Shown: positions 3,448-18,414 of the stretch, one piece after another | How positions within the stretch are numbered: the stretch's first letter is position 1 | Layout: each line of letters starts with the position of its first letter | From: a virus | Virus record (IMG/VR): IMGVR_UViG_3300025137_005002 | Span: 1-64,000 of that record | DNA length: 64,000 nucleotides | Direction: 5' to 3' (one strand) | The notes under the pieces: generated by a model | The model's database searches: none | Told to the model about the DNA's origin: nothing | The model's input: the letters and a program-made list of their open reading frames with translations, nothing else | Translations under genes and position numbers: made by a program

Positions 3448-4186
3448 TAATATTGCAATATGTTTTAGTGGAGAACTTAGAACTTTCAAAGTTGCTATGC
3501 CACGTTTAATGGATTACTTTAGAGACACACCTGCAGACATTTATTGTCATACATGGACAACATCAGGTGATAAGTTACATAAACTAAATGACTATAAACT
3601 ATTAGAAGACATTATTGATAATAGTGTTCATCATTTAGTTAAATTAGATTATCAAACATCTATTAATCATTCAGGCCCATTTGGTAATATGCTTTACAGT
3701 ATACAAAAAGCAAACTTTATGAAACGTGAATTTGAAGTAAAGAACAATTTTAGATATGACAAAGTTATTAAATGTAGATATGATATGTTAACACCTGATG
3801 GAAAAACATTTGGTATTAGAGATATAGAAGACAGAACAATTTACTATAGTATTGGTAATAGAGGATTAGTGCCTAATGACTTTGGTAAGCACGGATTAAG
3901 TGATATTATATTTTGGGGAGATAGTCCTAGTATGGATATTGCTTGTGATACATATCGTTATTATAATTGGGAAACTTATCCATTAGCACTAAAACTGCAA
4001 GGCGGTTATACTACAGATCCAGGAGATAGTATGTTAAGTCCTGGAACATTAATATACCAACAAGCACAAAAAAGAAATATTAAAATGACGCAAATTGTTC
4101 CACAGTTAATGGAAACACTTTGGAGAACTAGTGTAGAAGATTTAGATCCAAGCACACAATTTAACGACATAAAGGCGGCGTATTAA
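3434..4186 (+). CDS. Glycosyltransferase-like protein, IAICFSGELR family, copy 2
   Basis: ATG 3434 is chosen over the in-frame GTG at 3428 because GGAGGAGG lies just upstream at normal spacing. The 250-residue protein repeats the block order of the preceding gene: ICFSGELRT, HTWTTSG, KVIKCRYDMLTPDG. It overlaps that gene by 14 bases. The pair looks like a tandem duplication followed by divergence, perhaps to add successive sugars; this is inference. Confidence 0.6.
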   Translation: MKLSNNIAICFSGELRTFKVAMPRLMDYFRDTPADIYCHTWTTSGDKLHKLNDYKLLEDIIDNSVHHLVKLDYQTSINHSGPFGNMLYSIQKANFMKREFEVKNNFRYDKVIKCRYDMLTPDGKTFGIRDIEDRTIYYSIGNRGLVPNDFGKHGLSDIIFWGDSPSMDIACDTYRYYNWETYPLALKLQGGYTTDPGDSMLSPGTLIYQQAQKRNIKMTQIVPQLMETLWRTSVEDLDPSTQFNDIKAAY

Positions 4187-5058
4187 TGCACTTAATGGTA
4201 ACAGGAGATAGTTGGACTTTCGGAAGTGAGATTAAAGATCCTGCTTTACCGGATACAGTAAGTGATTGGGATCCAGAGAATAACGAATATCGTATTCCTA
4301 AAATATGGCCCACGATGTTGAAAGATATGATTAAGGCAGATGACCTTACTAACATATCTTATCCAGCCGCAAGTAATGATAGAATTGTAAGAACAACATT
4401 AAGTTGGATTACTGAAAACTATATTAAGCCTGGTATAGACTGTGAGAACAATTTGTTTGTCATAGTTGGCTTAACAAGTCCTGAACGTAAGGACTTTTAC
4501 TATAAGGATCCTGTAGACGAACGCAACGGCGCTGGCTGGACTACTATATGGCCCAATCAAACTAACCATCCGTATATGCAAAGAGGTATGCAACCCTTCT
4601 TTGATAACTACAGAATGTACTTATGGAATAAAGAAGAGTATGTTAATCGATATGTACAACAAGTAATTACATTAGAAAATTTCTTTAAAGTGCATAAGAT
4701 TAACTACTTGTTCTTTCAAGCATTTTATAATGTAGATGAAACACAAATATCACAGTGGCAAGATAAAAACTATGTTAACAGTGAAACAGAAAAGATGACT
4801 GTAGGTAATGCTGACCCGCGTTGGAACTTTCATTACAATGGACAAAACGACGGATGGCTATGGGATCAAGTAGACAGTAAAAGATTTTATGGTAAAGAAC
4901 AAGCACCACATAGTTTCCATAGTTACATTACTAATCAAGACAAAACAGAACATAACACAGAAGTTATTACAGGTATGCACCCAAACAAATATGGACATAT
5001 GTTATGGGCAAGAGAACTAAACAAATTTATTAGAGAAAATAAACTATGCGAAATTTAA
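4186..5058 (+). CDS. SGNH/GDSL hydrolase-like protein 1
   Basis: 290 residues. TGDSWTFGSE at residues 6-15 is the block I GDSx(L/W) signature with the nucleophile Ser, followed by NDRIVRTT near residue 64 (the Asn block) and a terminal MHPNKYGHMLWA that supplies the His of the D-x-x-H block. Family members hydrolyse or transfer acyl groups on sugars and lipids. It is one of five related genes in this stretch. No signal peptide is present, so the enzyme probably acts in the host cytoplasm or as a virion component. Confidence 0.75.
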   Translation: MHLMVTGDSWTFGSEIKDPALPDTVSDWDPENNEYRIPKIWPTMLKDMIKADDLTNISYPAASNDRIVRTTLSWITENYIKPGIDCENNLFVIVGLTSPERKDFYYKDPVDERNGAGWTTIWPNQTNHPYMQRGMQPFFDNYRMYLWNKEEYVNRYVQQVITLENFFKVHKINYLFFQAFYNVDETQISQWQDKNYVNSETEKMTVGNADPRWNFHYNGQNDGWLWDQVDSKRFYGKEQAPHSFHSYITNQDKTEHNTEVITGMHPNKYGHMLWARELNKFIRENKLCEI

Positions 5059-5834
5059 TTATAACGTGTGGAGATAGTTTTAGTAACGGCAGTGGATTAC
5101 CTGACTATGATTGTTTTGAAAAAAGTTTCGGTGGACTAACTGCTGAATATAAAAACGTAGAACAAAAAGTATTAGGTAGATCAGGATGTTGTAACTTTAC
5201 TATTTGGTTACAAGTTAAACACGCAGTTGAAAGAATGACAGTAGGCAACTACAAACCTTTTGTTCTTATTAGTATGACAAATGCGGCAAGAGTAGTTTGG
5301 TTCAAACCTGGACAAGATAAACCAATGGGAACAGAACCTACAATACAACATTTAAATTATGAAGACTATCCACCTTATAACAAATATACACCAGCAGAGC
5401 ACAGAAGACCTATTCCTATTACAACTGATAATAGTATGCAAAGTGAAACACTACAAAACTTAGATAGTTACTTTGATAGAGATGTTAAGGCTCGTTGGGC
5501 ACAGTTTGACAGACACGAACCAGAAGCACGTTTAAGAGTATTACAGAATTGGGTAGCAGACTTTTTCTCATTTGATATTAAGAATGAGTATGACACTGGT
5601 ATATTAACGGCGGCACACTTGCTAATGAAAACAAATAATATACCACACGTTTTTATGGGACACCAGCCAGACTTCGAAAGACTGCTACCTAAAGTAAATT
5701 ACGCAAATATTGATTGGGGTTATTACAGTAGAGAGTATCCGGATACAAGAAACACAGGACATTGTAATTACGAAGGACATAAACAAGTGTTTGAAATTCT
5801 TAAACCAAAAGTAGACGAGCAATGGCATCTTTAG
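5046..5834 (+). CDS. SGNH/GDSL hydrolase-like protein 2
   Basis: 262 residues opening with LIITCGDSFSNGSG, placing the nucleophile Ser at residue 10. The C-terminus NTGHCNYEGHKQVFE carries the His block, although the classical Asp-x-x-His is altered to H-C-N-Y-E-G-H. It overlaps its upstream paralogue by 13 bases. It has diverged strongly from the GDSW-type copies outside the motifs, which suggests a separate specificity rather than recent duplication. Confidence 0.65.
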   Translation: MRNLIITCGDSFSNGSGLPDYDCFEKSFGGLTAEYKNVEQKVLGRSGCCNFTIWLQVKHAVERMTVGNYKPFVLISMTNAARVVWFKPGQDKPMGTEPTIQHLNYEDYPPYNKYTPAEHRRPIPITTDNSMQSETLQNLDSYFDRDVKARWAQFDRHEPEARLRVLQNWVADFFSFDIKNEYDTGILTAAHLLMKTNNIPHVFMGHQPDFERLLPKVNYANIDWGYYSREYPDTRNTGHCNYEGHKQVFEILKPKVDEQWHL

Positions 5835-6583
5835 TATATAAAGCAGATTATCCACAACTAGTAGAACCATCAGTTGCCGCGTCAACTTTAAAATGGCATG
5901 GCAGTGATAAAGAAGAATTTTACAAAAAGAATAGTAAGTTCTTTTCTAACTGGCGTTGGAAAGATATAAACATTGAATACAAGTTTAACTGGTTAGGATA
6001 TCGTACAAAGGAAATACCAGAACTGGACAAAGACTTTTTACTAACATTTGGTTGTAGTTTTACAGAAGGAATTGGAATACCTAATTTTATGACATGGCCC
6101 AATAAACTTGCAGGCTTATTAAACTTAGATGTTTATAATGCAGGTAAAGGTGGATCTGGTTTAGACATTTGTTATTACAATGCATTACTTTGGAAACAAA
6201 ATAAATTACCTTTACCAAAACAAGTTGTAATACAATTACCCGAGCCAGAAAGAAAAAGTTGGGGAACATATGTTAACAATGATATTAGTTTAGATGTTAG
6301 CAATGGCAAAGAAGATGATTGGTGGAAACATTATATAACTTCCGATGGCGAAATGCATATGAATAATATTGCGTGGTATCTAGGGTTTAATAATGTATGG
6401 CAATCGCTAGGCGTACCTGTTTTAAATATTACATGGTCACCTTATAAACATTTAGAAAATTTAGAATTTAAATTGCATTACGCAAACGTAAAAAACGATT
6501 CAACTTTACTAGCAAGAGATAATATGCATAGTGGTCCAGAGTGGCATATAAATATTGCTAATAGATGTAAGGAACTATTATGA
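5822..6583 (+). CDS. SGNH/GDSL hydrolase-like protein 3 with N-terminal extension
   Basis: 253 residues. The GDS block appears only near residue 75 as LTFGCSFTEGIG, with Asp replaced by Cys before the nucleophile Ser, after an N-terminal extension of about 70 residues absent from the neighbours. NAGKGGSG near residue 104 is the Gly block, and DNMHSGPEWH at the end is the catalytic Asp-x-x-His. The G-C-S variant occurs elsewhere in SGNH proteins. It is linked to both neighbours by short overlaps. Confidence 0.65.
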   Translation: MASLVYKADYPQLVEPSVAASTLKWHGSDKEEFYKKNSKFFSNWRWKDINIEYKFNWLGYRTKEIPELDKDFLLTFGCSFTEGIGIPNFMTWPNKLAGLLNLDVYNAGKGGSGLDICYYNALLWKQNKLPLPKQVVIQLPEPERKSWGTYVNNDISLDVSNGKEDDWWKHYITSDGEMHMNNIAWYLGFNNVWQSLGVPVLNITWSPYKHLENLEFKLHYANVKNDSTLLARDNMHSGPEWHINIANRCKELL

Positions 6584-7317
6584 TAAAAACTTTGTATGCT
6601 AATGGAGATAGTTGGACATTCGGACAAGAACTTCGAGATGGCACCACTGACGATTTAGATTATAAATTTTATAACTCATGGCCCTGGCACGTTGCTCAAG
6701 GTTTGAATATACCTCAAGTAGTTAATGAAGGATTAGGTGGCGGAAGTAACGATAGAATATTTCGTAAAACTATAGACTACATTAGAAATTACAAAGGTAA
6801 ACCAAGTGAACTACAAGTAATAGTTGCTTGGACAACATATGAAAGAATTGAGATGCCTGTTGGTGTTAAGAGAAAACACGACAATGGCTACACAGAATGG
6901 GAAGAAGTTAACAATGAGTATATTAGTATACTGTTAAACAACCCACATTTAAATTTAACAAATGATGAAGACTTAGATAGATTACTGCCAGAATATCATA
7001 AGATTCGTACTATGCTGAACAGTAGTAAGGTAAATAGTTATAAGTTCTTTAACTTACAATGGTTGTTAAAACAAGTATGTGATAACTTAAACGTTAACTT
7101 ATTACAGATATATGCGTTAGACAATCCCGAATTTGTAGTAGGTAGACCCGAAGCAAATCAAGAATGGCTGGATGCAATATCCCCATACCCAGTTAGTTTA
7201 ACTAGACAACTAATGGAATACGAACACCTTAAACCCGTAAGGGCTCCCGGAAGACACCCTAATGAATTAGGACACAAAGAATTAGCAAAAACTATTGTTG
7301 CTCACTTGCAACAGTAA
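6580..7317 (+). CDS. SGNH/GDSL hydrolase-like protein 4
   Basis: 245 residues beginning LYANGDSWTFGQEL (nucleophile Ser about residue 11), then LGGGSNDRIFRKT near residue 50 (Gly and Asn blocks) and GRHPNELGHKELA near the C-terminus (His block). It shares NGDSW and the NDRI/SRIA-RKTI-like block with copies 1 and 5, forming the closest sub-group. It starts with ATGA at the upstream stop. A sugar O-acylesterase or acyltransferase role fits the surrounding glycan genes but is an inference. Confidence 0.75.
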   Translation: MIKTLYANGDSWTFGQELRDGTTDDLDYKFYNSWPWHVAQGLNIPQVVNEGLGGGSNDRIFRKTIDYIRNYKGKPSELQVIVAWTTYERIEMPVGVKRKHDNGYTEWEEVNNEYISILLNNPHLNLTNDEDLDRLLPEYHKIRTMLNSSKVNSYKFFNLQWLLKQVCDNLNVNLLQIYALDNPEFVVGRPEANQEWLDAISPYPVSLTRQLMEYEHLKPVRAPGRHPNELGHKELAKTIVAHLQQ

Positions 7318-7336
7318 ACAATATGGAACTCATAAA

Positions 7337-7459
7337 ATGTATATACTAAAAAAAATTAAACGTTGGTTTGGTGACATAGTTTATCGAATTAAACTTGAAC
7401 GTGCTTATCGTAAAAAACTAAAAGAGATTAAGAAAAAAGATCCGTACATATACAAGTAG
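7337..7459 (+). CDS. Small basic protein (40 aa)
   Basis: Begins at ATG 7337 and fills most of the gap between SGNH copy 4 and the nucleotidyltransferase. The peptide is highly basic (IKRWFGDIVYRIK, RKKLKEIKKKD) and amphipathic, with no Cys. It may be a nucleic-acid- or membrane-binding peptide, but no family is recognised. Existence rests only on position, an intact frame and Lys-rich composition like other small proteins here. Confidence 0.4.
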   Translation: MYILKKIKRWFGDIVYRIKLERAYRKKLKEIKKKDPYIYK

Positions 7460-7466
7460 GCAAGTA

Positions 7467-8192
7467 ATGAATATTATAATCGGAATGGCAGGAGCCGGCA
7501 GTAGATTTACAGAAGCCGGATACAACACAGTACCTAAACCTTTAGTAAGGGTTGGAGGCACAACAATGATTCAATCAGCAGTAGAGAGTTTGGACATTGA
7601 TGGAAAATATACCTTTGTTGTACGACAAGATCATATGACCGATTATCCTTGGCTCGAGCATCATTTAAAAAGTTTCGCAGACACTGTTAACATTGTTACA
7701 CTTGACCATGTTACAGAAGGAGCCGCTTGTAGTTTATTACAAGCAAAAGAATTTATAAACAACGACGAACCATTGATTAGTATCAATAGTGACCAAGTGT
7801 TACATTGGGATAGTTCAATGTTCTTAGAAAAATGCAAACTCGAGCCCCACGTGAGTTGGGTAATGACCTACCCGCATAATCATAACAAACATAGTTTTGT
7901 TAAGGTTAACGACGAAGGGCAAATAACACAAGCGGCAGAGAAAGTTATGATTAGTAACAAGGCTACTGTTGGCTTATATCATTGGAGTAAAGGAAGTTTG
8001 TTTGTTGAAGGTGCAGAACAAATGATTGCAAATAACGATAGACATAATAACGAATTCTATCTAGCACCAATTTATAATTATACAATTAAAAATAATATTG
8101 TTAAACCATATGAAGTACACGCAAGAAATTTTAGCCCTGTTGGTACTCCAGAAGATTTATCTAACTATCACAACAAGTGGTGGCGTGGATGA
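7467..8192 (+). CDS. Sugar-phosphate nucleotidyltransferase-like protein
   Basis: 241 residues with the nucleotidyltransferase opening IIIGMAGAGSRFTEAG (residues 3-18), PKPLVRVGG at about 24-32 with the conserved Lys-Pro, and SINSDQVLHW near residue 108 carrying the metal-binding Asp. The family activates sugar 1-phosphates to NDP-sugars. The G-A-G-S-R variant of the GxGTR loop fits the hexose-1-phosphate group, including capsule-type members. With the phosphomannomutase-type and UDP-sugar dehydrogenase genes it suggests local NDP-sugar supply. Sugar identity unknown. Confidence 0.75.
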   Translation: MNIIIGMAGAGSRFTEAGYNTVPKPLVRVGGTTMIQSAVESLDIDGKYTFVVRQDHMTDYPWLEHHLKSFADTVNIVTLDHVTEGAACSLLQAKEFINNDEPLISINSDQVLHWDSSMFLEKCKLEPHVSWVMTYPHNHNKHSFVKVNDEGQITQAAEKVMISNKATVGLYHWSKGSLFVEGAEQMIANNDRHNNEFYLAPIYNYTIKNNIVKPYEVHARNFSPVGTPEDLSNYHNKWWRG

Positions 8193-8884
8193 TTAAATGC
8201 TTGTATGCAAACGGTGACAGTTGGACTGAAGGAGATGAATTAGGTTTACCTTACAGTGACAATACACCAACATACAGACTTAGAAACAGTTGGCCCAAAC
8301 TACTTGCAGATAAGTTGACTATACCTGCGGTTGTAAACGAAGCAATTAGAGGAAGTAGTGGAAGTAGAATAGCAAGGCGTACAATACGTTTCATGCGTGA
8401 GTGGTGCAATAAACGACATGGTGCAGAGTTACTTGTTGTTGTTTGTTGGACTACATTTGAACGTGATGAGTTGCCAGTGGATTGGAACGGAGCAAAGTAT
8501 ATTCCTTACCACAATGTATGTTATAATATTCCTGGACATATACCAGGAGACGATAAAAAGAATTTAGACCCTATGTTAGTTGAAACAATTAATAAGATGC
8601 ATAAACCTTATACAACAACACTAGGAACAGAAAGTAGAAAACAAATGCAGTTTGAACGTATGTGGAACCTACAACAGATTGCAAAAAGTTTAAACGTAAA
8701 ATTAATTCAAACGTTTGCACTTGATCAACCAGACAGTGAATGGCTTAAAGATGTTAATTATATTACACCAAGTTTTATTGACATGACAAAGAGTCAAGGC
8801 TGGGCTTGTGGAGAAGGCGGACACACATTAGAAGAAGGGCACAAAGGATGGGCAAACTATCTGTATCAAACGATAAGTGGCTAG
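8189..8884 (+). CDS. SGNH/GDSL hydrolase-like protein 5
   Basis: ATG 8189 overlaps the previous stop as ATGA and is preferred over the in-frame GTG at 8177. 231 residues: LYANGDSWTEGDE (Ser about residue 9), then RGSSGSRIARRTIRF near 52-66 matching the block of copy 4, and GGHTLEEGHKGW at the end. The catalytic Asp-x-x-His is degenerate here (E-G-G-H). It is separated from the other four copies by the nucleotidyltransferase, so the duplication is older than, or was interrupted by, that insertion. Confidence 0.7.
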   Translation: MIKCLYANGDSWTEGDELGLPYSDNTPTYRLRNSWPKLLADKLTIPAVVNEAIRGSSGSRIARRTIRFMREWCNKRHGAELLVVVCWTTFERDELPVDWNGAKYIPYHNVCYNIPGHIPGDDKKNLDPMLVETINKMHKPYTTTLGTESRKQMQFERMWNLQQIAKSLNVKLIQTFALDQPDSEWLKDVNYITPSFIDMTKSQGWACGEGGHTLEEGHKGWANYLYQTISG

Positions 8885-9132
8885 GCTGGGATCACCCTAT
8901 TGCCGTTGTTGCCGTTAATGGACGAAGTATTCTGCAGAGAACACTTGAAGTAGGAAACTACGAAACAGTAATCTTAGATAAAGAATTAATTCAGTTCTAT
9001 CCAGAGTTAATTGAAATGTGTAAAGTTTATGTTAACGATGTTAAGTTTATGGATGTACATGATCCGGATATGCTTGTTGTTAACACAGAAAAAGAATTAT
9101 ATGAATATAACATTGTAGAGGAACACAAATAA
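8848..9132 (+). CDS. Hypothetical protein (94 aa)
   Basis: ATG 8848 follows AAAGG and overlaps the end of SGNH copy 5 by 37 bases. The product is acidic with alternating strands and helices (PIAVVAVNGRSILQ, KVYVNDVKFMDVHDPD). No Cys cluster, signal peptide or membrane segment is seen and no family is recognised. It ends in TAATG with the nucleosidase gene, so translation of the two is coupled. Confidence 0.5.
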   Translation: MGKLSVSNDKWLGWDHPIAVVAVNGRSILQRTLEVGNYETVILDKELIQFYPELIEMCKVYVNDVKFMDVHDPDMLVVNTEKELYEYNIVEEHK

Positions 9133-9686
9133 TGATTGCATTAATTATTGCATTACCTGAAGAAGCAGAAGGTATAGACTTTAACAGAACTTACATAAGT
9201 GGAGTTGGAAAAGTTAATTCAATGATTGCTACATTTAAAGCAATTCGAGATGGAGCAACAGGAATACTTAATTATGGATCAGCAGGTTTAGTTAGTAAAA
9301 AAGATTTACACAATCAACTAATACAACCTGATATACTAATACAACGTGATATGTTTACAGAGCCACAAGCACCTAGAGGCGTTACTCCATTTGAAGAAGG
9401 AGATTATGCAGGTGCTATTGACTTAGGTACAGGTACAAACGTTACACTAGGATCCGGAGATAGTTTTGTACAAGAACCTGATCCGTGGTTTGAATATGCT
9501 AGTGTAGATATAGTAGACATGGAAGCCTACGGTATTGCCAAAACTTGTAGGAAGGTTGGCAATGTAACTTTCAAATGTTTTAAATGGGTAAGTGACTTTG
9601 CAGATGAAAATGCAATGGAACATTGGCGTAAGAATTTAGCAAACGGAAATAGTGCAATGAACGAAATAATGAAAGGCTATAAGTGA
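9132..9686 (+). CDS. MTA/SAH/5'-deoxyadenosine nucleosidase-like protein
   Basis: 184 residues, somewhat shorter than bacterial MTAN (about 230). ALPEEAEG at residues 7-14 matches the GAMEEE block with the catalytic Glu; GVGKVNSMIAT at about 24-34, NYGSAG near 50 and VDMEAYGIA with WVSDFAD in the C-terminal third match the purine-binding and catalytic-Asp blocks. The family cleaves methylthioadenosine, S-adenosylhomocysteine and the radical SAM by-product 5'-deoxyadenosine to adenine plus a sugar. With APRT and seventeen radical SAM genes nearby, by-product removal is a plausible role. Symbol withheld because substrate is not proven. Confidence 0.8.
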   Translation: MIALIIALPEEAEGIDFNRTYISGVGKVNSMIATFKAIRDGATGILNYGSAGLVSKKDLHNQLIQPDILIQRDMFTEPQAPRGVTPFEEGDYAGAIDLGTGTNVTLGSGDSFVQEPDPWFEYASVDIVDMEAYGIAKTCRKVGNVTFKCFKWVSDFADENAMEHWRKNLANGNSAMNEIMKGYK

Positions 9687-10012
9687 AAAAATATAAACTA
9701 GATGATATGAAAGGTGGTTGGTTTGTAGGAAACTTTGAGCCTACAGCCTTTAAGGCAAACTTTGAAGTTGGTATCCACCGACATAAGAAAGGTGAATTCC
9801 ATCAGGATCACTTTCATAAAAAAGGTACAGAGATTAACTGTATGAGAAAAGGCAAAGTAAAAATAAACGGAGAAGTGTTTAGTGAAGGAGATATTTTCAT
9901 ATTATATCCTTACGAAGTTAGTCAAGTTGAATACTTAACCGATGTAGAATTAACAGTGGTTAGAGATATTTGTGACACAGATGACAAATATATGTTTGAC
10001 ATTAAACAATAA
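9683..10012 (+). CDS. Cupin-domain protein next to RuBisCO-like gene
   Basis: 109 residues from a GTG overlapping the nucleosidase stop. HRHKKGEFHQDHFHKKG at about 31-47 is a His-rich cupin motif 1 and GEVFSEGDIFILYPYEV corresponds to the strand block before motif 2, so a single metal-binding beta barrel is expected. In Rhodospirillum rubrum a cupin acts directly after a RuBisCO-like isomerase in the MTA-isoprenoid shunt; acireductone dioxygenase in methionine salvage is also a cupin. Position directly before the RuBisCO-like gene supports a partner role, but sugar-isomerase cupins are also common in glycan loci. Confidence 0.65.
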   Translation: MKKYKLDDMKGGWFVGNFEPTAFKANFEVGIHRHKKGEFHQDHFHKKGTEINCMRKGKVKINGEVFSEGDIFILYPYEVSQVEYLTDVELTVVRDICDTDDKYMFDIKQ

Positions 10013-10030
10013 AGAAGGTACAATACAATT

Positions 10031-11167
10031 ATGCTTGATATATACGTGGATGGAGTAGACGCAAAAGAATACTTCACAGTAACATATAAACTAGAAGGTA
10101 ACGACTTACAACGTGCGGCATTTGGGTTAGCAGTTGGACAAAGTGTGGGTAACCCTAGTGTAAGAAATGAATATGAAACACCAGAACTAATTAGTCAGTA
10201 TGCGGCAAAGATAATTGGTAAGCCTGAAGACTTCGCCGGCAAGAGTACAGGCATTGTAAAGATTGCTTGGCCTTATAGAATTATTGATTGGGAAACAGAT
10301 GGTATTGCTCAATTGATGTGTGTACTAATGGGTGGACAAATGGACATCGATTATATTCATAGATGTGAGTTATTAGATTTAGATATTGACTTTGAATTAT
10401 GTGATGCAGTTAAACCACGTTACGGATTATCAGGGTTTAGAAAACTAGTAGGTAATTACAATAAGCCGTTACTAGGATCTATAGTTAAACCTAAAACAGG
10501 ACTAACAGAGAAAGCATTAATAGAAATTATTACTGCTTTTGTTGAAGGCGGAGTTGACTTTATTAAAGAAGATGAGATAATGGCAAACCCGGCTTGTTTA
10601 CCCCTTAAGACTCGCATAGACGTCGTACAAAGGGCCTTGAAAGGTACAGACGTTGTGTACTGCTATTGTATTAATAGTGATCCATTACATCTACTAGAAA
10701 GAGCTAAAATGGTTGTCGACGGAGGTGGTAATGGAGTTCACGTTAACTTCTGGAGTGGACATGGAGCATACAAGAGTATTAACAAATTAAACTTACCTTT
10801 ATTTGTACATTATCAAAAATCAGGCGATAAAGTATTAAGTAGTGAGAAACACGCATACCGTATTAGTTGGTATGTACTTTGCAAGTTAGCAAGTATCTGT
10901 GGAGTGGACACAATCCATACAGGTATGTGGGGTGGATATTTAAGTGATGATGAAAACGAACTAAGAAGAACAATGCATATGTTGAGTAACAACAATGTTG
11001 TTCCTGCTTTAAGTTGCGGTATGACAGCAGAACTTATACCAGAAATAACAAGACGCTTTGGGGTTGACTATATGGCAAACGTTGGTGGAGCAATACACGA
11101 ACACCCAGATGGTATGAAAGCCGGAGCATTAAAATTAAGAAAAGCAATAGATAGTGTAACACAATGA
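10031..11167 (+). CDS. RuBisCO-like protein (form IV type)
   Basis: 378 residues with AAGGAAG-like spacing upstream (AAGAAGG then ATG). GSIVKPKTGL near 154, GVDFIKEDE near 179-187 (the carbamylated Lys plus Asp-Glu metal ligands), PLFVHYQKSG near 256 and YMANVGGAIHEHPDG near 350 (phosphate-binding Gly pair) place it in the RuBisCO superfamily. True carboxylases need the loop 6 Gly-Lys-x-x-Gly lysine; here the segment reads HTGMWGGYLSDDE without it, and the Arg after the catalytic His is Tyr. It is therefore probably an enolase or isomerase of a ketopentose 1-phosphate. Nucleosidase, cupin and APRT neighbours fit salvage of MTA or 5'-deoxyadenosine. Confidence 0.85.
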   Translation: MLDIYVDGVDAKEYFTVTYKLEGNDLQRAAFGLAVGQSVGNPSVRNEYETPELISQYAAKIIGKPEDFAGKSTGIVKIAWPYRIIDWETDGIAQLMCVLMGGQMDIDYIHRCELLDLDIDFELCDAVKPRYGLSGFRKLVGNYNKPLLGSIVKPKTGLTEKALIEIITAFVEGGVDFIKEDEIMANPACLPLKTRIDVVQRALKGTDVVYCYCINSDPLHLLERAKMVVDGGGNGVHVNFWSGHGAYKSINKLNLPLFVHYQKSGDKVLSSEKHAYRISWYVLCKLASICGVDTIHTGMWGGYLSDDENELRRTMHMLSNNNVVPALSCGMTAELIPEITRRFGVDYMANVGGAIHEHPDGMKAGALKLRKAIDSVTQ

Positions 11168-11328
11168 TAGATAAAAATAAAACAAAAGATTATACAAAAC
11201 CTGAACCTGCTGAACTACAACGAAAACTTGATGAAAAGATGAAAAAGTTTTTAGAGAAAGGCGGCAAAATTGAGAAACTTGAACCAATGAAACCTACGAA
11301 AGAACAATTAAAAAGTTGGACAGTGTAG
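11164..11328 (+). CDS. Small Lys-rich protein (54 aa)
   Basis: ATG 11164 lies within the last codons of the RuBisCO-like gene and the stop overlaps the GTG of the APRT gene, so it bridges the two exactly. Charged and helical (ELQRKLDEKMKKFLEKGGK), no Cys or membrane segment. No family recognised. Retention of an intact frame with overlaps at both ends supports a real gene. Confidence 0.5.
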   Translation: MIDKNKTKDYTKPEPAELQRKLDEKMKKFLEKGGKIEKLEPMKPTKEQLKSWTV

Positions 11329-11855
11329 TGATAAACTATAAGCAACATATTATAAATGTACCAGACTATCCAGTTAAAGGAATACAATTCAAAGACCTTA
11401 CTCCGTTATGGAGTGATACAGAAATACTTTTTCAATTAATTAAAGATATGGCTAAACCTTGGGAACGACGAGGCATTAGAAAAGTTGTTGCTATAGAGTC
11501 TAGAGGATTTATTATAGGTAGTGCATTAGCAATACAATTAGGTTGTGGATTTGTTCCCATAAGAAAACCTGGTAAGTTACCTAGAGATACTTTCAGTGAA
11601 GCATATGATTTAGAGTATGGATCAACAGAGATACATATCCATAAAGATGCACTTACAGATGAGAATGTTTTAATAGTAGACGACTTACTAGCAACAGGTG
11701 GAACTGCTTTAGCGGCTTATGTTTTATTACAAAAGAATTTTCCAAATGTTAATGTTGCAGGATTTAGTTTTATGGCATCATTAGATTTTTTACAAGGGCA
11801 TAGTGATTTAAGTATGTTGGGATTACCAATAGAAAGTTTAGTTAGTTATTCATGA
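11328..11855 (+). CDS. apt: Adenine phosphoribosyltransferase
   Basis: 175 residues, the usual APRT size. GTG 11328 shares its G with the upstream TAG; a TTG at 11316 is the alternative. VPDYPVKGIQFKDLTPL near the N-terminus, AIESRGFIIGSALA near 54-67 and the PRPP loop VLIVDDLLATGGT near 118-130 are all typical, with RKPGKLPRDT as the flexible loop. The enzyme makes AMP from adenine and PRPP. Adenine released by the nucleosidase encoded about 2 kb upstream could be returned to the nucleotide pool, useful to a phage and to a system turning over much SAM. Confidence 0.85.
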   Translation: MINYKQHIINVPDYPVKGIQFKDLTPLWSDTEILFQLIKDMAKPWERRGIRKVVAIESRGFIIGSALAIQLGCGFVPIRKPGKLPRDTFSEAYDLEYGSTEIHIHKDALTDENVLIVDDLLATGGTALAAYVLLQKNFPNVNVAGFSFMASLDFLQGHSDLSMLGLPIESLVSYS

Positions 11856-12550
11856 ATTATGTTTTTGATGTAGACGGTACTCTATCCGAAAGTAGACAAA
11901 CTATAGACGTAGACTTTAGACTTTGGTTCATGAAATGGATGAAAGGTAAAGATGTTTTTATTGTTACTGGAAGTGATAGACCTAAAACTATAGAACAAAT
12001 AGGACATGAGATCGTAGATAACTGTACAATGGTATTTCAATGTGCAGGCAATAGTGTATGGCGTAACGGTATAGAAGTTTCAAGTAGTAATCTTAATGCA
12101 CCATCTGATATGGATACATGGTTAGAACAAATGGTAGACTTTAGTAGGTGTCCAGAAAAAACTGGAAATCATATTGAAAAACGTACAGGGTTAATAAATT
12201 TTAGTACTGTAGGAAGAAATGCAGTAGGACAACAACGTGATGATTATTATGAATGGGATAAAATTAATAACGAACGTGTAAGCATATGTCATCAATTTAA
12301 TGAAACCTTTCTAGGCTTTGAAGCAGAGCTAGGCGGAAACACTAGTATAGATATTCATTTAAAAGGAAAGAACAAAGCACAGGTGTATGATATTATAGGA
12401 TCACCTATGGTGTTCTTTGGAGATAGAATTCATGCAAACGGAAACGATAAACCGTTAGCAGACAAAATGGTACACCCAGAAGATGAGTGGCATCAAGTAG
12501 TTGGACCACACGAGACATGGGATATCTTATTACAAAAGTATACGGACTAA
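11852..12550 (+). CDS. Phosphomannomutase-type HAD protein
   Basis: 232 residues. YVFDVDGTLSESR (residues 3-15) is HAD motif I with the nucleophile Asp; FIVTGSDRP near 33 is motif II; INFSTVGRNAVG near 113 and NTSIDIHLKGKNKA near 166 match the cap substrate blocks of the eukaryotic-type (PMM2-like) phosphomannomutases; FFGDRIHANGNDKPLAD near 187 is motif IV. This family interconverts mannose 6- and 1-phosphate, feeding GDP-mannose type pathways, and some members are simple phosphatases. It starts by ATGA at the APRT stop. Confidence 0.75.
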   Translation: MNYVFDVDGTLSESRQTIDVDFRLWFMKWMKGKDVFIVTGSDRPKTIEQIGHEIVDNCTMVFQCAGNSVWRNGIEVSSSNLNAPSDMDTWLEQMVDFSRCPEKTGNHIEKRTGLINFSTVGRNAVGQQRDDYYEWDKINNERVSICHQFNETFLGFEAELGGNTSIDIHLKGKNKAQVYDIIGSPMVFFGDRIHANGNDKPLADKMVHPEDEWHQVVGPHETWDILLQKYTD

Positions 12551-12551
12551 T

Positions 12552-13904
12552 ATGGAACCTGCTGATCCACAAGTAATGAAAAGAAAACTGAATTCAGTTG
12601 GCCCTGGATTCTGTTTAGCCAAGTGGACTCAACTTACACTTAACTTACAAAATGGAACTGCTCACAGTTGTCATCACCCACCTGTACACCAAGTGTCTAA
12701 AGATGAAATTAAATTAGATCCTAGTTCATTACACAATTCAATATTTAAAAAACAACAACGTAAAGATATGCTCGAAGGTGGCAGACCTAAAGAGTGTGAC
12801 TACTGTTGGAGAGTTGAAGATGCAGATCCAAATGCATTAAGTGACAGACATTTAAAAAGTGCATTTAGTTGGAGCAACGAACACTTTGATAAAATTAAAA
12901 ACAATGATTGGAGTACAAACTTTCAACCTACTTATGTAGAAGTAAGTTTTGGTTATGCTTGTAACTTTAAATGTATGTATTGTAGTCCTGCTATTAGTAG
13001 TGCATGGATGCAAGAAGCAAAGCAACATGGAAGTTTTCCAACCTCTGATAATTACAATGATATCAAATGGTTAGAACGTTCAGGTCGTATGCCGATACCT
13101 GAAAGAGAAGAGAATCCATATGTAGATGCATTTTGGAAATGGTGGCCCGACTTATATCCTGCGTTACATACTTTTCGTGTTACAGGCGGTGAACCATTAA
13201 TGAACAAAAATACTTTCCGTATGATGGATTGGATTATTAATACTGATACACCTAATACAAATTTATTGTTAGGTATTAATAGTAACTTTTGTGTTGACGA
13301 CAAACTGTTTAATAAGTTTATTAGTCAAGCACACAAAGTAGTAGATAGTAACAAAGTTCGCAAGTTAGAAGTTTATACAAGTGCTGAAGCAGTTGGTAAT
13401 AAAGCAGAGTATATTAGAACTGGATTAGATTACAAGAAGTTTTTTGCTAACGTAGAACGTGTACTAGAAGAATTTAAAGATAATAATAAATTTATTATTA
13501 CGTTTATGTGTACTTACAATGCATTGAGTGTAACAACATTTGGTGGCTTCTTAAAAGACCTTATTAAGTTAAGAAAAAAGTATGGCAGAGATTGTATGTA
13601 TATTGATATACCATTCTTAAGATATCCCGAAATGATGGACGTTAAAATACTTCCTGGTAGTTTCGAAGAGTATATGATTAGTACTGTAGACTACATGGAA
13701 CAGATGGAAACTGAAGGATTAGTACATAGTAGCGAAACTGCTAAACTTAAACGTATTATAGAATACTGGCGCAGTCAACGTACTGTAGACCATAGCAATC
13801 ATAGAAAAAACTTTAAAGTTTATACTAAAGAACTTGATATTCGCAGAAGCACTAACTTTAAAGAAGTTTTCCCAGAATATGCGGGTTTCTACGATGCAAT
13901 TTAA
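12552..13904 (+). CDS. Radical SAM enzyme A1, N-terminal SPASM-like module
   Basis: 450 residues from ATG 12552 (an upstream TTG at 12501 would run inside the HAD gene). N-terminal module: Cys21 in GFCLAKW, a single SCHHPP where most paralogues have CC, and CDYC about 50 residues later. The radical SAM motif is CNFKCMYC at C137/C141/C144, followed by TGGEP at about 211. The usual S-x-D-G is replaced by TSAEAVGNKAEYIRTG, suggesting an altered substrate pocket. The C-terminal family signature ends LDIRRSTNFKEVFPEY. It stands alone, 10 kb from the main array, between HAD and glycosyltransferase-like genes. Confidence 0.85.
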   Translation: MEPADPQVMKRKLNSVGPGFCLAKWTQLTLNLQNGTAHSCHHPPVHQVSKDEIKLDPSSLHNSIFKKQQRKDMLEGGRPKECDYCWRVEDADPNALSDRHLKSAFSWSNEHFDKIKNNDWSTNFQPTYVEVSFGYACNFKCMYCSPAISSAWMQEAKQHGSFPTSDNYNDIKWLERSGRMPIPEREENPYVDAFWKWWPDLYPALHTFRVTGGEPLMNKNTFRMMDWIINTDTPNTNLLLGINSNFCVDDKLFNKFISQAHKVVDSNKVRKLEVYTSAEAVGNKAEYIRTGLDYKKFFANVERVLEEFKDNNKFIITFMCTYNALSVTTFGGFLKDLIKLRKKYGRDCMYIDIPFLRYPEMMDVKILPGSFEEYMISTVDYMEQMETEGLVHSSETAKLKRIIEYWRSQRTVDHSNHRKNFKVYTKELDIRRSTNFKEVFPEYAGFYDAI

Positions 13905-15099
13905 TACAATTTACATAAATAACATTAGTAAAGAAATTAACCAGCATACTGTTGATGCAATATCAACTAACTGTTATGACACTTTAAATGCTGGTACTAT
14001 GTCCTATGTAGACGAATCACTACATTCCTTGGGCATTAACAATCCGTATTTTATATTTAATGGACCATGTGAATGGTTCGGATCTTGGTCGGATTCGCGG
14101 ATAAACTTCGAAGCTCATACCGAAGTGTACTTCTTCCTCTATGAAGTGTTATCAGTATGGCACAATCACTCCAGATATAATTGTCCAGATGGTAGTATAA
14201 AAAAAGAATGTAAAATCAATGAATTCGAAATGATACAGAACTGGTGCAACAAGCACAACGTTAGTAAGTTCTCTATATTTACAAACGAGTATCGTATGTT
14301 AGAACAATTACAAAATACAAAATACACCAACTGGGCAATATATCCTTTAGATACATTTAGTCTAGGTTACTGCAAACTAAATCGTGAACCTAGCAATAAT
14401 ATTCCAGAACAACTTAATTATAAAATAAACTGCTTTACATATCGCTGGGATCAGCACAGACACGCGGCAGTTTCATTTATACATAATACACTTCCTAATG
14501 ATAGTACTATAACACACTGGCATAGAACAGATGATGTATTACTTAAATTTCCGTTAAACACTAGCAAACATTTTGAAGCATATAGTAAAGGTTGTAAAAG
14601 CCTTATGGATTTGTTGCCTATAACAAGAACTGATGCTGAAACTGAATTAGTTAGTATGCAGGATTTTGTTAACCCAAGTAAAGGAACAATAAATAATATA
14701 GCAGGATCAGATAACATAGAAGAAGCATACGAATCATCTTTTGTTACTCTTGCTTGTGAAACTAATTATGAATATCCTTGGGGACAAATAAGTGAGAAAA
14801 CTTTAGATCCTATAAAGCAAGGATCTCCAATATTATTATTAGCAGGACCACATAGTTTAGATTTATTAAAACATTGGGGTCTAAAAACATTTCACGAATT
14901 TTGGGACGAAGGCTATGACGAAGAACTAGACCCAATCAAACGAATGGACAAAGTATTTGATATCATTATTGATATTAGTAATCAATCATATAAAGAACTT
15001 ACTATAATAAGAAAACATATGAAGCCTATACTTGTCCACAATCGGAACTTAATTAGAACTGGTGCAATTAGAAAACACATAACAAAGGTATTAGCATGA
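13894..15099 (+). CDS. Glycosyltransferase-like protein with GT10-like C-terminus
   Basis: 401 residues from ATG 13894; a TTG-type start at 13834 would overlap the radical SAM gene by 71 bases. The C-terminal third, with ACETNYEYPWGQISEKTLD, then IKQGSPILLLAGP and LKTFHEFWDEGYDE, resembles the nucleotide-sugar-binding end of alpha-fucosyltransferase-type (GT10-like) enzymes, where an S/T-E-K segment contacts the donor. The N-terminal half is not recognised. The neighbouring nucleotide-sugar dehydrogenase supports a glycan role. Confidence 0.5.
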   Translation: MQFNTIYINNISKEINQHTVDAISTNCYDTLNAGTMSYVDESLHSLGINNPYFIFNGPCEWFGSWSDSRINFEAHTEVYFFLYEVLSVWHNHSRYNCPDGSIKKECKINEFEMIQNWCNKHNVSKFSIFTNEYRMLEQLQNTKYTNWAIYPLDTFSLGYCKLNREPSNNIPEQLNYKINCFTYRWDQHRHAAVSFIHNTLPNDSTITHWHRTDDVLLKFPLNTSKHFEAYSKGCKSLMDLLPITRTDAETELVSMQDFVNPSKGTINNIAGSDNIEEAYESSFVTLACETNYEYPWGQISEKTLDPIKQGSPILLLAGPHSLDLLKHWGLKTFHEFWDEGYDEELDPIKRMDKVFDIIIDISNQSYKELTIIRKHMKPILVHNRNLIRTGAIRKHITKVLA

Positions 15100-16241
15100 A
15101 CATAGGTTGGTTTGGTTTAGGCAAACTTGGAATGATTAGTTCTGAGATGTTAGTTAAGAAGGGGCATACAGTTACAGGGTATGACAAGGAAGAACGCTTT
15201 AGTGGGCTTGTACGAGTGTCTAAGACACCAAAAGAAGCAGTAGTAGGACAGGACTTTGTCTTTGTTGCAGTACAAACTCCACACCATAAAGACTATGGTG
15301 GAGAGAAGCCTATAACACATTTGCCAAACAAAGACTTTGGATTAGACCCTGTCAAAGAATGCTTAAAAGAAATTAACAAATATGCAACAGAAAATACTAT
15401 TGTTGTTTTAATCAGTACAATACTTCCTGGAACAACAAGAAGAGAATTCGCAGGCTTATTAGATAAAGCAAGATTAATTTATAACCCATACTTAATTGCT
15501 ATGGGCACAGTTGCTTGGGATATGGTAAATCCAGATATGGTTATCATTGGAGGCAACAAACCAAACGACACTGATGCAAAAGCATTAATAAAATTTTACA
15601 AAACAGTAATGGAGAATGATCCGCATTATAATATTGGTACATGGGAAGAAGCAGAAGCAACAAAAATATTTTATAACACATTTATTAGTGCAAGGTTAAG
15701 TCTTGTTAATATGATTCAAGACGTTGCCCAAAGTGTTGGGAATATGAATGTTGATGTTGTAACAAATAGTTTAAGTAATGCAGGATACCGAATTACCAGT
15801 GCCGCTTATATGAAAGCAGGCATGGGCGATGGTGGACCTTGTCACCCTAGAGATAATATTGCCTTAAGACATTTAGCGGAACGATTAGACCTAGGTTATG
15901 ACTTGTTCGACGCGATTGCCAAAAGTAGAGAAGTACAAGCCGAACGTATGGCAAAAGAAATATTAAAACATGGAAAGCAAATTTGCTTTACAAGTGATAC
16001 ATATAAGCCAGGAGTAACATACACTGATGGATCTTATGCACTACTAGTTCAACACTATATTGGAAAGTTGGGTGGAATGATTGTTAATGGTTTCGACCAT
16101 GCAGTTGAAGTTATGGTTATAACTCACCCAACTGACCATAACTTTAATGTTGATAAAGCAACAATAGTTTTTGATCCTTGGCGTACATACGAAGCCAAAG
16201 ACCCAAACGTGAAAGTAATACATTATGGAAACACTAGATAA
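15096..16241 (+). CDS. UDP-glucose/GDP-mannose dehydrogenase family protein
   Basis: 381 residues. IGWFGLGKLG at residues 3-12 is the Rossmann NAD-binding loop; VAVQTPHHKDYGG near 50 and VVLISTILPGTTR near 100 are typical N-terminal domain blocks; EEAEATKIFYNTFISARLS near 185 matches the central helix with catalytic Lys and Asn; GDGGPCHPRDN near 248 contains the catalytic Cys in the GxCxPRD form. Such enzymes oxidise NDP-hexoses to uronates in two steps. It is only distantly similar to the second dehydrogenase at 22083, so two different sugar acids may be made. Confidence 0.8.
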   Translation: MNIGWFGLGKLGMISSEMLVKKGHTVTGYDKEERFSGLVRVSKTPKEAVVGQDFVFVAVQTPHHKDYGGEKPITHLPNKDFGLDPVKECLKEINKYATENTIVVLISTILPGTTRREFAGLLDKARLIYNPYLIAMGTVAWDMVNPDMVIIGGNKPNDTDAKALIKFYKTVMENDPHYNIGTWEEAEATKIFYNTFISARLSLVNMIQDVAQSVGNMNVDVVTNSLSNAGYRITSAAYMKAGMGDGGPCHPRDNIALRHLAERLDLGYDLFDAIAKSREVQAERMAKEILKHGKQICFTSDTYKPGVTYTDGSYALLVQHYIGKLGGMIVNGFDHAVEVMVITHPTDHNFNVDKATIVFDPWRTYEAKDPNVKVIHYGNTR

Positions 16242-16752
16242 ACTTCAACCTCTAGAATATCATACAGTAGAAATTTCTCCAACTTGGGAAATAGGAGACT
16301 ACGAAGAGTTTGATTACAAAAGAGTAGAGTATGGAGACTTTAAGCAATTAGCAAAATGGAAGACTGCTGGCTTTACACATGATAACTTTACTGGTATGAT
16401 GTTTAATGACCAAAAAAGTATTCCACAATGGGCAAAGAATATAGCAACAGTATTAGAATGGAAAGACTGCGGTTTTACATTTTACAAAATGACTACTGGA
16501 GATATACTACCGCCACACTCAGACCACTTCAACAAGTATAAAGAACTTTTTGGAATAGAGTCAAGTGATGACGTATTACGTGGTTTGGTATTTTTAGAAG
16601 ATAAAAAGCCAGGACACATTTTTGAAGTAGACCAGTATAGTATGAACTGGCACAAAGGAGGTGCCGTTTTATGGAGAGGTAGAGTTCCCCATAGTGCAGG
16701 CAATATAGGATATGAACCAAGATACACGTTACAAATTACAGGACATTATTAA
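16225..16752 (+). CDS. Fe(II)/2-oxoglutarate-oxygenase-like protein
   Basis: 175 residues. PPHSDHFNKYKELF near 94 carries a H-x-D-like metal pair (His-Ser-Asp), and WRGRVPHSAGNIGYEPRYTL near the C-terminus provides the distal His and an Arg suited to 2-oxoglutarate, with LVFLEDKKPGHIFE between them. The order fits the double-stranded beta-helix fold of prolyl-4-hydroxylase-like enzymes. Substrate unknown. Overlaps both neighbours, including 41 bases with the aminotransferase gene. Confidence 0.55.
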   Translation: METLDKLQPLEYHTVEISPTWEIGDYEEFDYKRVEYGDFKQLAKWKTAGFTHDNFTGMMFNDQKSIPQWAKNIATVLEWKDCGFTFYKMTTGDILPPHSDHFNKYKELFGIESSDDVLRGLVFLEDKKPGHIFEVDQYSMNWHKGGAVLWRGRVPHSAGNIGYEPRYTLQITGHY

Positions 16753-17413
16753 TCTAGATATTCTAGAGTTATTAAAGGACTACGGCGTTGGGTGGAATAA
16801 TCCTTACGACATCATATACGAGTTTGAAAAAAGACTCGCTGAATACACAGGTGCACCTTATGTAGTTACAACAGATTGTTGTACACACGCACTTGAACTA
16901 GCCCTACGTTGGTATAAAAAGAGACACCCTAGTCATGTACCTTCAATAAAGATACCTGACCAAACATACCTTAGTATTCCAATGATGCTTGAAAAGGTTG
17001 GACTTTCTTTTAGTATTACTGAAGAAGAATGGATTGGTGAGTACCAGTTAGGACCTAATCTTCCTATATGGGATAGTGCTAGAAGATTACAAAAGAATAT
17101 GTACGAAGAAGAAACGTTCAAATGCTTGAGTTTTGGACACGGTAAACCATTGACAATTGGCAAAGGAGGTGCTATACTATTAGATAGTAGAGAAGCCTAT
17201 GATTGGCTAATTCGTGCCAGGTACGATGGTAGAGATCTAAAAGTTTCTCCTTGGGATAAAGAACACTACGAAACATTGGGTTTTCATTACTATATGTCAC
17301 CAGACCAAGCGGCGATAGGTATAGTTAAGTTAGACCAATACAAAGAAACTGCTCCTAAGAAAGTAGCATATCCAAGTATTAAGAAATGTTTCATGATAGG
17401 GAATAATAAATGA
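16712..17413 (+). CDS. DegT/DnrJ-type sugar aminotransferase, short form
   Basis: 233 residues against about 370-400 for the family. Present are the N-terminal cofactor region YVVTTDCCTHALELAL near 50, IPDQTYLSIPMMLEKVGL near 88, DSARRLQ near 120 and SFGHGKPLTIGKGGAILL near 139, where the Lys in GHGK aligns with the PLP-binding Lys. The C-terminal small domain is mostly missing: after a block like YMSPDQAAIGIVKLDQY the protein stops within about 30 residues. It could be a functional minimal form or a decayed gene. The family transaminates keto-sugars or keto-cyclitols; an amidinotransferase gene follows by ATGA. Confidence 0.7.
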   Translation: MNQDTRYKLQDIINLDILELLKDYGVGWNNPYDIIYEFEKRLAEYTGAPYVVTTDCCTHALELALRWYKKRHPSHVPSIKIPDQTYLSIPMMLEKVGLSFSITEEEWIGEYQLGPNLPIWDSARRLQKNMYEEETFKCLSFGHGKPLTIGKGGAILLDSREAYDWLIRARYDGRDLKVSPWDKEHYETLGFHYYMSPDQAAIGIVKLDQYKETAPKKVAYPSIKKCFMIGNNK

Positions 17414-18414
17414 TTATAGAATCACATAATGAATGGGATCCATTAAAGAAAGTTATACTAGGAGATGTGCATGGTGCAAGATTTCCAAAGTACGATGATG
17501 TTTTTAATGAAGTTGCTAAACATAGTAAGTGGACAGAAACTGCACAACCAGTTGGACCAATTAACCAAGACATTATTGACTTAACAGATCACGAGTTAAG
17601 ACAGTTTGAAAAAGTATTAGTTGAACTAGGAATTGAAGTTTTACGTCCAAGACAATTAGACTTTCAACAAACTGTACATGGATACAGATACTTTGCAGAT
17701 GGTTTTTATAATTACTGTCCTAGAGATGTTATCCTTGTAATAGGAAACGTTGTAATTGAAACACCAGTATTGTTTCATAGTAGGTTTCATGAAACAGAAG
17801 CATACCGTGACATTAGACACGAAGCAATGAAGTCAGGTGTTAAATGGATTAGTGCACCAAGACACGCACTACCAGTACATGAAGTATTTGAAGATGGTAA
17901 ACTTACAGAGAAGACTCCAATCTTTGATGCGGCTAACGTAATGCGTTTTGGTAATGACTTATTATACTTAAAAAGTCAAACAGGTAATGCCGCAGGTGCC
18001 CAATGGTTAAGTACAGTACTTGGACCAGAGTACACAGTTCATATATGGGAAGACGTTTATGCGTATGCTCATATTGATAGTACTATCGCGGCACTTAACG
18101 AATCAACTCTTTTAATTAACAAACAAAGAGTTAAGCCATCACAGTTACCAAAGTTTTTAAAGAAGCATAAACGAATTTGGGTTGACAGTGTAGAGGATAT
18201 GGAGTTTCACAAATATCCATATGCTAGTAATTGGATTGGAATGAATGTGTTAAGCATTGATCCTAAAACAGTTGTCGTCGATCCTAGACAACCAAAGTTA
18301 ATTAAGAAATTAGAAAAAGCAAAGTTTGAAGTTATACCTGTACAACTTACACACAGTCGTACATTAGGTGGCGGACATCATTGTGCAACATTAGATTTGG
18401 AGAGACGAGCATAA
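17410..18414 (+). CDS. Amidinotransferase (glycine/inosamine-phosphate type)
   Basis: 334 residues opening with NEWDPLKKVILGDVHGARFP, typical of glycine and scyllo-inosamine-phosphate amidinotransferases. FDAANVMRFG near 176 supplies an active-site Asp, YAHIDSTI near 219 the catalytic His, and GGGHHCATLD at the C-terminus the catalytic Cys at about residue 325. The enzyme moves the amidino group of arginine to a primary amine, giving a guanidino product. Placed between an aminotransferase and a carbamoyltransferase, the order recalls streptomycin-type aminocyclitol pathways; this analogy is inference. Confidence 0.85.
   Translation: MIIESHNEWDPLKKVILGDVHGARFPKYDDVFNEVAKHSKWTETAQPVGPINQDIIDLTDHELRQFEKVLVELGIEVLRPRQLDFQQTVHGYRYFADGFYNYCPRDVILVIGNVVIETPVLFHSRFHETEAYRDIRHEAMKSGVKWISAPRHALPVHEVFEDGKLTEKTPIFDAANVMRFGNDLLYLKSQTGNAAGAQWLSTVLGPEYTVHIWEDVYAYAHIDSTIAALNESTLLINKQRVKPSQLPKFLKKHKRIWVDSVEDMEFHKYPYASNWIGMNVLSIDPKTVVVDPRQPKLIKKLEKAKFEVIPVQLTHSRTLGGGHHCATLDLERRA

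Follow-up and report, generated by a model that had tools for sequence, protein, structure and literature searches.

A RuBisCO-like protein of a marine phage probably belongs to a nucleotide-sugar unit interleaved with an adenine-salvage gene pair

Described RuBisCO-like proteins (RLPs) such as MtnW (2,3-diketo-5-methylthiopentyl-1-phosphate enolase) and OiaX (3-oxo-isoapionate-4-phosphate decarboxylase) act on phosphorylated keto-sugars, which they enolise or decarboxylate. Another RLP takes part in the 5'-methylthioadenosine (MTA)-isoprenoid shunt of Rhodospirillum rubrum and Rhodopseudomonas palustris; this shunt needs MtnP and MtnA, and the R. palustris gene rlp1 adjoins a cupin gene (PMC5893883). 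We analysed a window of 64 kb out of a 76,478-base IMG/VR virus record, described as a marine phage, in which an RLP without the carboxylase residues likewise has a cupin gene as its neighbour. The phage nature of the record is backed by a phage-type thymidylate synthase and by phrog_1314 and phrog_1297 proteins. Four tightly packed plus-strand open reading frames (ORFs) at 9132–11855 encode, in this order, a nucleosidase of the MTA nucleosidase (MTAN) type (NUC), a cupin, the RLP and an adenine phosphoribosyltransferase (APRT). A preliminary description of this DNA had noted the four genes within 2.7 kb, and the ORFs, profile matches and AlphaFold2 (AF2) folds confirmed them; the four identities are not chance similarities. 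The most important neighbour of the RLP, a sugar-1-phosphate nucleotidyltransferase-like protein (NTP), is encoded outside the interval considered there. Comparison with related loci suggests that the locus probably combines two modules rather than forming a single recycling pathway. We consider it fairly probable that an NTP-cupin-RLP sugar unit and a NUC-APRT pair for adenine salvage are independent of each other and interleaved here.

To the main evidence belongs the gene neighbourhood of RLP across its family. RLP was detected in 182 IMG/VR contigs by protein search and in 357 by a search with a 20-row alignment, giving a viral total of at least 357 contigs. In addition, 23 cellular relatives were found in bacteria and archaea, among them SAR11, Legionella, Azospirillum, Patescibacteria, Elusimicrobia and Nanoarchaea. 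No RLP match was obtained among INPHARED annotated phages or in PHROGs, and the search of BFVD returned unrelated TIM-barrel-like matches only. After removal of RLPs at least 90% identical, neighbours within 3 kb were counted for 75 viral and 17 cellular loci. NTP was present at all 75 viral and 15 cellular loci, the cupin at 59 and 6, and a protein resembling glycerophosphodiester phosphodiesterases (GDPD) at 50 and 11, respectively. By comparison, APRT was found at 3 viral loci and NUC at one, that of the window itself, and neither occurred at a cellular locus. The most frequent order, NTP-cupin-RLP-GDPD, was seen at 27 viral loci, next to several rearranged orders; because the order of the partners is rearranged, simple hitch-hiking is unlikely. 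Thus, as expected of a nucleotide-sugar pathway, the nucleotidyltransferase is coupled to RLP across lineages.

For NTP, the best profile match was the NDP-sugar pyrophosphorylase 4evw (E 2e-35), followed by many sugar-1-phosphate nucleotidyltransferases, and the GDPD-like profile matches glycerophosphodiester phosphodiesterases. The cupin is weak in Pfam, with profile matches to quercetinase, KdgF and a mannose-6-phosphate isomerase-type cupin; its AF2 model (pLDDT 93.5) aligns with the cupin folds 7zvy/7zvm at Z 12.2. Epimerases and putative glycosyltransferases often adjoin RLP. In three Legionella species the RLP-NTP pair lies beside a LicD gene (PF04991 E 1e-42), from which it is divergently oriented in L. 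nautarum (L101), L. drozanskii (L103) and L. maceachernii (L104). Within the genus, RLP was present in 4 of the 22 genomes searched. No fusion joining RLP to a partner was found; the only fusions were between HAD and NTP, namely a beta-phosphoglucomutase-like HAD domain fused to NTP in the RLP-bearing phages L066, L067, L056 and L139. By-eye reading of cluster representatives placed DnaB-like helicase and primase genes near RLP in other carriers.

Next, we compared the RLP itself with the known forms. Its AF2 model (pLDDT 92.7) superimposes on 2cwx, the form III RuBisCO of Pyrococcus horikoshii, with Z 41.9 over 364 residues, and 2cwx is also the nearest solved sequence. The RuBisCO large-subunit fold and the K201-D203-E204 Mg2+/carbamate site with K175 (spinach numbering) are present. 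Among the 36 clade members compared, K175, K177, K201, D203, E204, S379 and G381 are retained in all, and E60G, T65N, N123G, H294Q, K334Y and G380C replacements occur in all; at the carboxylase positions T65/N123/H294/H327/K334 the window RLP has N/G/Q/H/Y. This pattern of kept and lost residues means that the site for proton abstraction and metal binding is present and the CO2/carboxylation apparatus is gone. The protein therefore appears to retain the enolase half of RuBisCO chemistry, like other RLPs, and is unlikely to fix CO2. K175, K201, D203 and E204 are shared with MtnW and OiaX; K177 is kept in the window RLP but lost in both, and the gene neighbours differ. Scores against the MtnW/OiaX equivalog models were all below cut-off (131.8 of 409 for MtnW, 103.7 of 513.6, and 117.4 of 700 for OiaX), as were those against RuBisCO models (146.5 bits, cut-off 438; 143.9, cut-off 497). 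In a FastTree tree the known RuBisCO and RLP forms unite at support 0.999, apart from the viral and cellular RLP group, and a profile of the clade gave 335–384 bits for Legionella and Azospirillum members versus at most 167 for any solved RuBisCO or RLP. By the sequence tests made, the protein falls outside the MtnW, OiaX, DeepYkr and CO2-fixing families and is best assigned to a separate RuBisCO-family branch, not characterised before, that has an active-site signature of its own.

In the first module, NTP, cupin and RLP, together with the GDPD-like protein in most other carriers, would make up a conserved unit that provides a sugar or polyol in nucleotide-activated form. The RLP may enolise a phosphorylated keto-sugar or sugar acid at its carbamylated-lysine/Mg2+ site, and then isomerise or decarboxylate it to a phosphorylated precursor, with the cupin probably assisting by isomerisation. 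NTP, whose family points to such a role, would activate the RLP product as a nucleotide sugar, and glycosyltransferases would transfer the activated product to a glycan on the surface of the virion or of the infected host. This end use is suggested because of the neighbouring epimerases, putative glycosyltransferases, HAD and carbamoyltransferase proteins, and the LicD of Legionella. We regard it as evenly balanced whether the viral RLP clade represents the first glycan-biosynthesis enzyme of the RuBisCO superfamily, acting in an NTP-cupin-RLP-GDPD cassette spread across phages, SAR11, Legionella and nanoarchaea, with some published viral rbcL 'carbon-fixation' genes among its members.

The second module consists of NUC and APRT. 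NUC exceeds the cut-off of PF01048 and scores 70.6 bits against NF004168 (cut-off 129) and 62 against NF005522 (cut-off 161). It shares with MTAN/Pfs the PNP/UDP fold, the catalytic Glu/Glu/Asp and the G-x-G-K-x-N motif; VDMEA replaces VEMEA, and a conserved RDM motif is common to NUC and 4pr3. The catalytic residues E11, E131 and D155 are conserved in 77/78, 81/81 and 81/81 viral homologues, respectively. APRT exceeds NF002636 (191.3 bits, cut-off 125) and NF002634 (176, cut-off 170) and reaches 177 against TIGR01090 (cut-off 186). Homologues of NUC were detected in 87 viral contigs, 80 loci of which were examined: APRT was present at 14 of them, 13 times directly adjacent and in either gene order, and RLP occurred within 6 kb of NUC at none.

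Close relatives of the window locus point to separate acquisition of these genes. In L003–L007, L040 and L078, whose RLPs are 82–92% identical, the same neighbours are found, and NUC and APRT are missing at the locus. NUC was absent from whole records of 14 relatives by protein search and of 9 by PF01048, and the whole-record search of relatives detected APRT in G005–G007 only. L009, L010 and L025 have APRT in the same position. It is located exactly between a 54-aa ORF, which overlaps its likely start and is retained immediately 5' of HAD in the relative L006, and a phosphomannomutase (PMM)-like HAD gene. The latter is a lineage-level partner of RLP, found at 6 of the 75 viral loci. At a similar place between RLP and HAD, L078 has an ORF for an unrelated membrane protein of 109 aa (L078:9134–9463), and thus this junction accepts inserts as a hot spot. 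Gene content suggests that NUC is a lineage-specific insertion; NUC and APRT appear to be a separate insertion that flanks cupin-RLP on both sides, and plausibly an optional rather than obligate adenine-salvage pair. GC content at third codon positions, lowest for APRT and sixth lowest for NUC among 49 ORFs, was rejected as a sign of co-acquisition and not used as evidence, because several other genes are equally low.

NUC would hydrolyse 5'-deoxyadenosine, MTA and/or S-adenosylhomocysteine (SAH), a proposal that agrees with its family and catalytic residues, and APRT would convert the released adenine to AMP. By this route NUC could relieve product inhibition of phage radical S-adenosylmethionine (rSAM) enzymes or of methyltransferases. 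The need to remove 5'-deoxyadenosine is known, and NUC-APRT salvage is consistent with it (PMC6079011). In the rSAM by-product salvage via 5-deoxyribose described there, the common step would be a nucleosidase acting on 5'-deoxyadenosine; unlike that system, the window record contains no PF01008-type isomerase and has APRT instead. The whole 76 kb record holds 14 places matching PF04055, and a Twitch-domain rSAM protein is the nearest potential source of 5'-deoxyadenosine. An array of rSAM genes occupies 23949–48528 of the window. In related phage records the numbers of rSAM places are 14 (G002), 11 (G003), 9–13 (G005–G008), 11 (G015) and 18 (G021).

Alternatively, NUC and APRT may serve general purine salvage, or the disposal of SAH for methyltransferases, during phage DNA synthesis and have no special rSAM link, which is a real possibility that we rate somewhat short of even. 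By BLAST, an rSAM gene lies within 6 kb at just 8 of the 80 viral NUC loci, some records with NUC-APRT pairs have few rSAM genes or none, and relatives with rSAM arrays do without the pair. On the other hand, the nearest NUC homologue (L191, 57% identity) closes an rSAM array, directly after five rSAM genes. The NUC of L235 has rSAM genes around it; its record counts 18 rSAM places and also contains APRT. In the window record there are 14 such places. The proposal in the preliminary description that NUC and APRT re-use adenine is plausible for the pair, given the MTAN residues, the 14 loci with APRT and the position of L191.

Several observations weigh against the division into a sugar unit and a salvage pair. 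The interleaving of the genes in one operon could reflect a functional link between them in this phage. NUC scores below all NCBIfam cut-offs, so that its nucleoside substrate is a putative one. Sister phages with 11–14 rSAM genes (14 in G002; 11 in G003, 306 kb) lack both NUC and APRT, so that rSAM arrays can do without the pair. The RLP locus of the window has no GDPD gene, and LicD was rejected as a general partner, since among the RLP loci it is seen in Legionella alone. Finally, the RLP loci counted are the closest matches of the 357 contigs; the neighbour frequencies are valid for this near part of the family, and more distant members may differ.

The preliminary description had instead joined all four genes in a single module that recycles rSAM by-products, in which RLP would isomerise 5-deoxyribulose-1-phosphate or 5-methylthioribulose-1-phosphate with a cupin as in the MTA shunt. 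We consider this improbable. The four genes do lie within 2.7 kb of an rSAM-rich record, and RLP stands beside a cupin as in the R. palustris rlp1-cupin pair (PMC5893883). However, RLP loci rarely hold NUC or APRT, none of the 80 viral NUC loci had RLP nearby, and the gene order is broken in every close relative. The reference RLPs of the probable shunt type (L342, L345–L347) were assigned from a KDDH motif, the adjacent cupin in L345 and the published description (PMC5893883). These alphaproteobacterial proteins group with MtnW/4nas in the tree and not with the viral clade, reach 55–63 bits against the clade profile (about 49–63 for this type) versus 349–384 for true relatives, are among the least similar, and differ from the clade at E204 (H there), H294/R295 and S379. 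Shunt RLPs belong to the DeepYkr clade and have MtnP and MtnA as partners, whereas the window RLP belongs to another clade and has a nucleotidyltransferase. The MtnA that the shunt needs had no homologue (PF01008) in the 76 kb record; this record is possibly incomplete, and the enzyme could come from the host. BLASTP between the window cupin and the one beside L345, a comparator other than that of R. rubrum, gave no significant match (E 1.4), and cupins diverge fast. On clade, residues and missing MtnA we rejected RLP as a member of the shunt, and the suggested likeness to the R. rubrum pathway is not borne out. Of the proposed single module the NUC-APRT pair is plausible, and the membership of RLP and cupin is not supported, with NTP as partner at 75 and NUC at 1 of the 75 viral loci. 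The comparative evidence suggests that RLP and cupin may act in an unrelated sugar pathway, which the preliminary description had named as speaking against its own proposal.

It is very improbable that RLP acts in a form III-like AMP or nucleoside phosphate pathway that links the AMP made by APRT to ribulose phosphates: the nearest solved sequence is a form III RuBisCO and APRT adjoins, but the carboxylase residues are lost, APRT is rarely linked to RLP (3/75), and PF01008, the fold family of ribose-1,5-bisphosphate isomerase, is absent from the record. Least probable of all is that RLP works as a viral RuBisCO and fixes CO2 in infected cells. This reading has the retained fold with K175/K201/D203/E204 and reported viral rbcL auxiliary metabolic genes (PMC12615777, PMC8506154, PMC12607003) in its favour and was rejected on residues, since K334, H294, T65, N123 and E60 are replaced in every member, the best RuBisCO-model scores are far under the curated cut-offs, and phosphoribulokinase was not noticed, although no search aimed at it was made.

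The proposed nucleotide-sugar assignment matters since RuBisCO-like genes of viruses are now being classed with those for carbon fixation (PMC12615777, PMC8506154). The RLP family is common in IMG/VR, and the residues of its members speak against a role in CO2 fixation. One study placed viral rbcL with 'RbcL-like' proteins (PMC12607003), and carboxylase activity was reported for a soil virus rbcL gene (PMC12615777). The Global Ocean Sampling study of 2007 reported novel groups of RuBisCO homologues in ocean metagenomes; those outside the known clades are possibly the same group as the clade described here, and the part of that report consulted gives no gene context or function for them (PMC1821046). 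Clusters of jumbo cyanophages for making sugars and decorating capsules or metabolites likewise contain epimerases, cupin sugar isomerases, nucleotidyltransferases, carbamoyltransferases and HAD phosphatases, and a RuBisCO-fold enzyme is not described there (PMC7824862). In the open-licence literature searched we found no description of a partnership of RLP with nucleotidyltransferase, cupin and GDPD. If the glycan reading is true, one of the best-known enzyme folds would have a new biological role, and RLP with the nucleotidyltransferase would offer a tractable two-enzyme assay for finding the sugar. With NUC-APRT pairs and with NUC genes in rSAM arrays, some phages may be able to manage rSAM product inhibition.

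Table 1. Genes at and around the RLP locus (positions in the window).
Feature	Position	Strand	Evidence
Sugar-1-phosphate nucleotidyltransferase-like protein (NTP)	7467–8192	+	TIGR03992 E 1e-11 (under cut-off); 4evw profile match
MTAN-type nucleosidase (NUC)	9132–9686	+	PF01048 E 3.9e-9; NF004168 E 1.4e-19
Single-domain cupin (CUP)	9683–10012	+	Profile matches to solved cupins; AF2 model
RuBisCO-like protein (RLP)	10031–11167	+	PF00016 E 1.4e-35; AF2 fold; tree; residues
Small 54-aa ORF between RLP and APRT	11164–11328	+	Read from sequence
APRT	11328–11855	+	GTG 11328 likelier start than listed TTG 11316; NF002636
PMM-like HAD phosphatase/phosphomutase, after APRT	11852–12550	+	PF03332 E 5.9e-21
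Twitch-domain radical SAM protein	12501–13904	+	NF033640 E 3.4e-96

Other genes of the window were also recorded. Several SGNH/GDSL-like hydrolase paralogues are encoded at 4186–8884, upstream of the four-gene locus. Downstream, a UDP-glucose dehydrogenase-like gene (15096–16241), an Asp/Arg hydroxylase-like gene (16225–16752), a DDAH/arginine deiminase-like gene (17410–18414) and a carbamoyltransferase gene (18381–19922; PF16861 E 4e-53) were read together as a sugar or metabolite decoration cluster.

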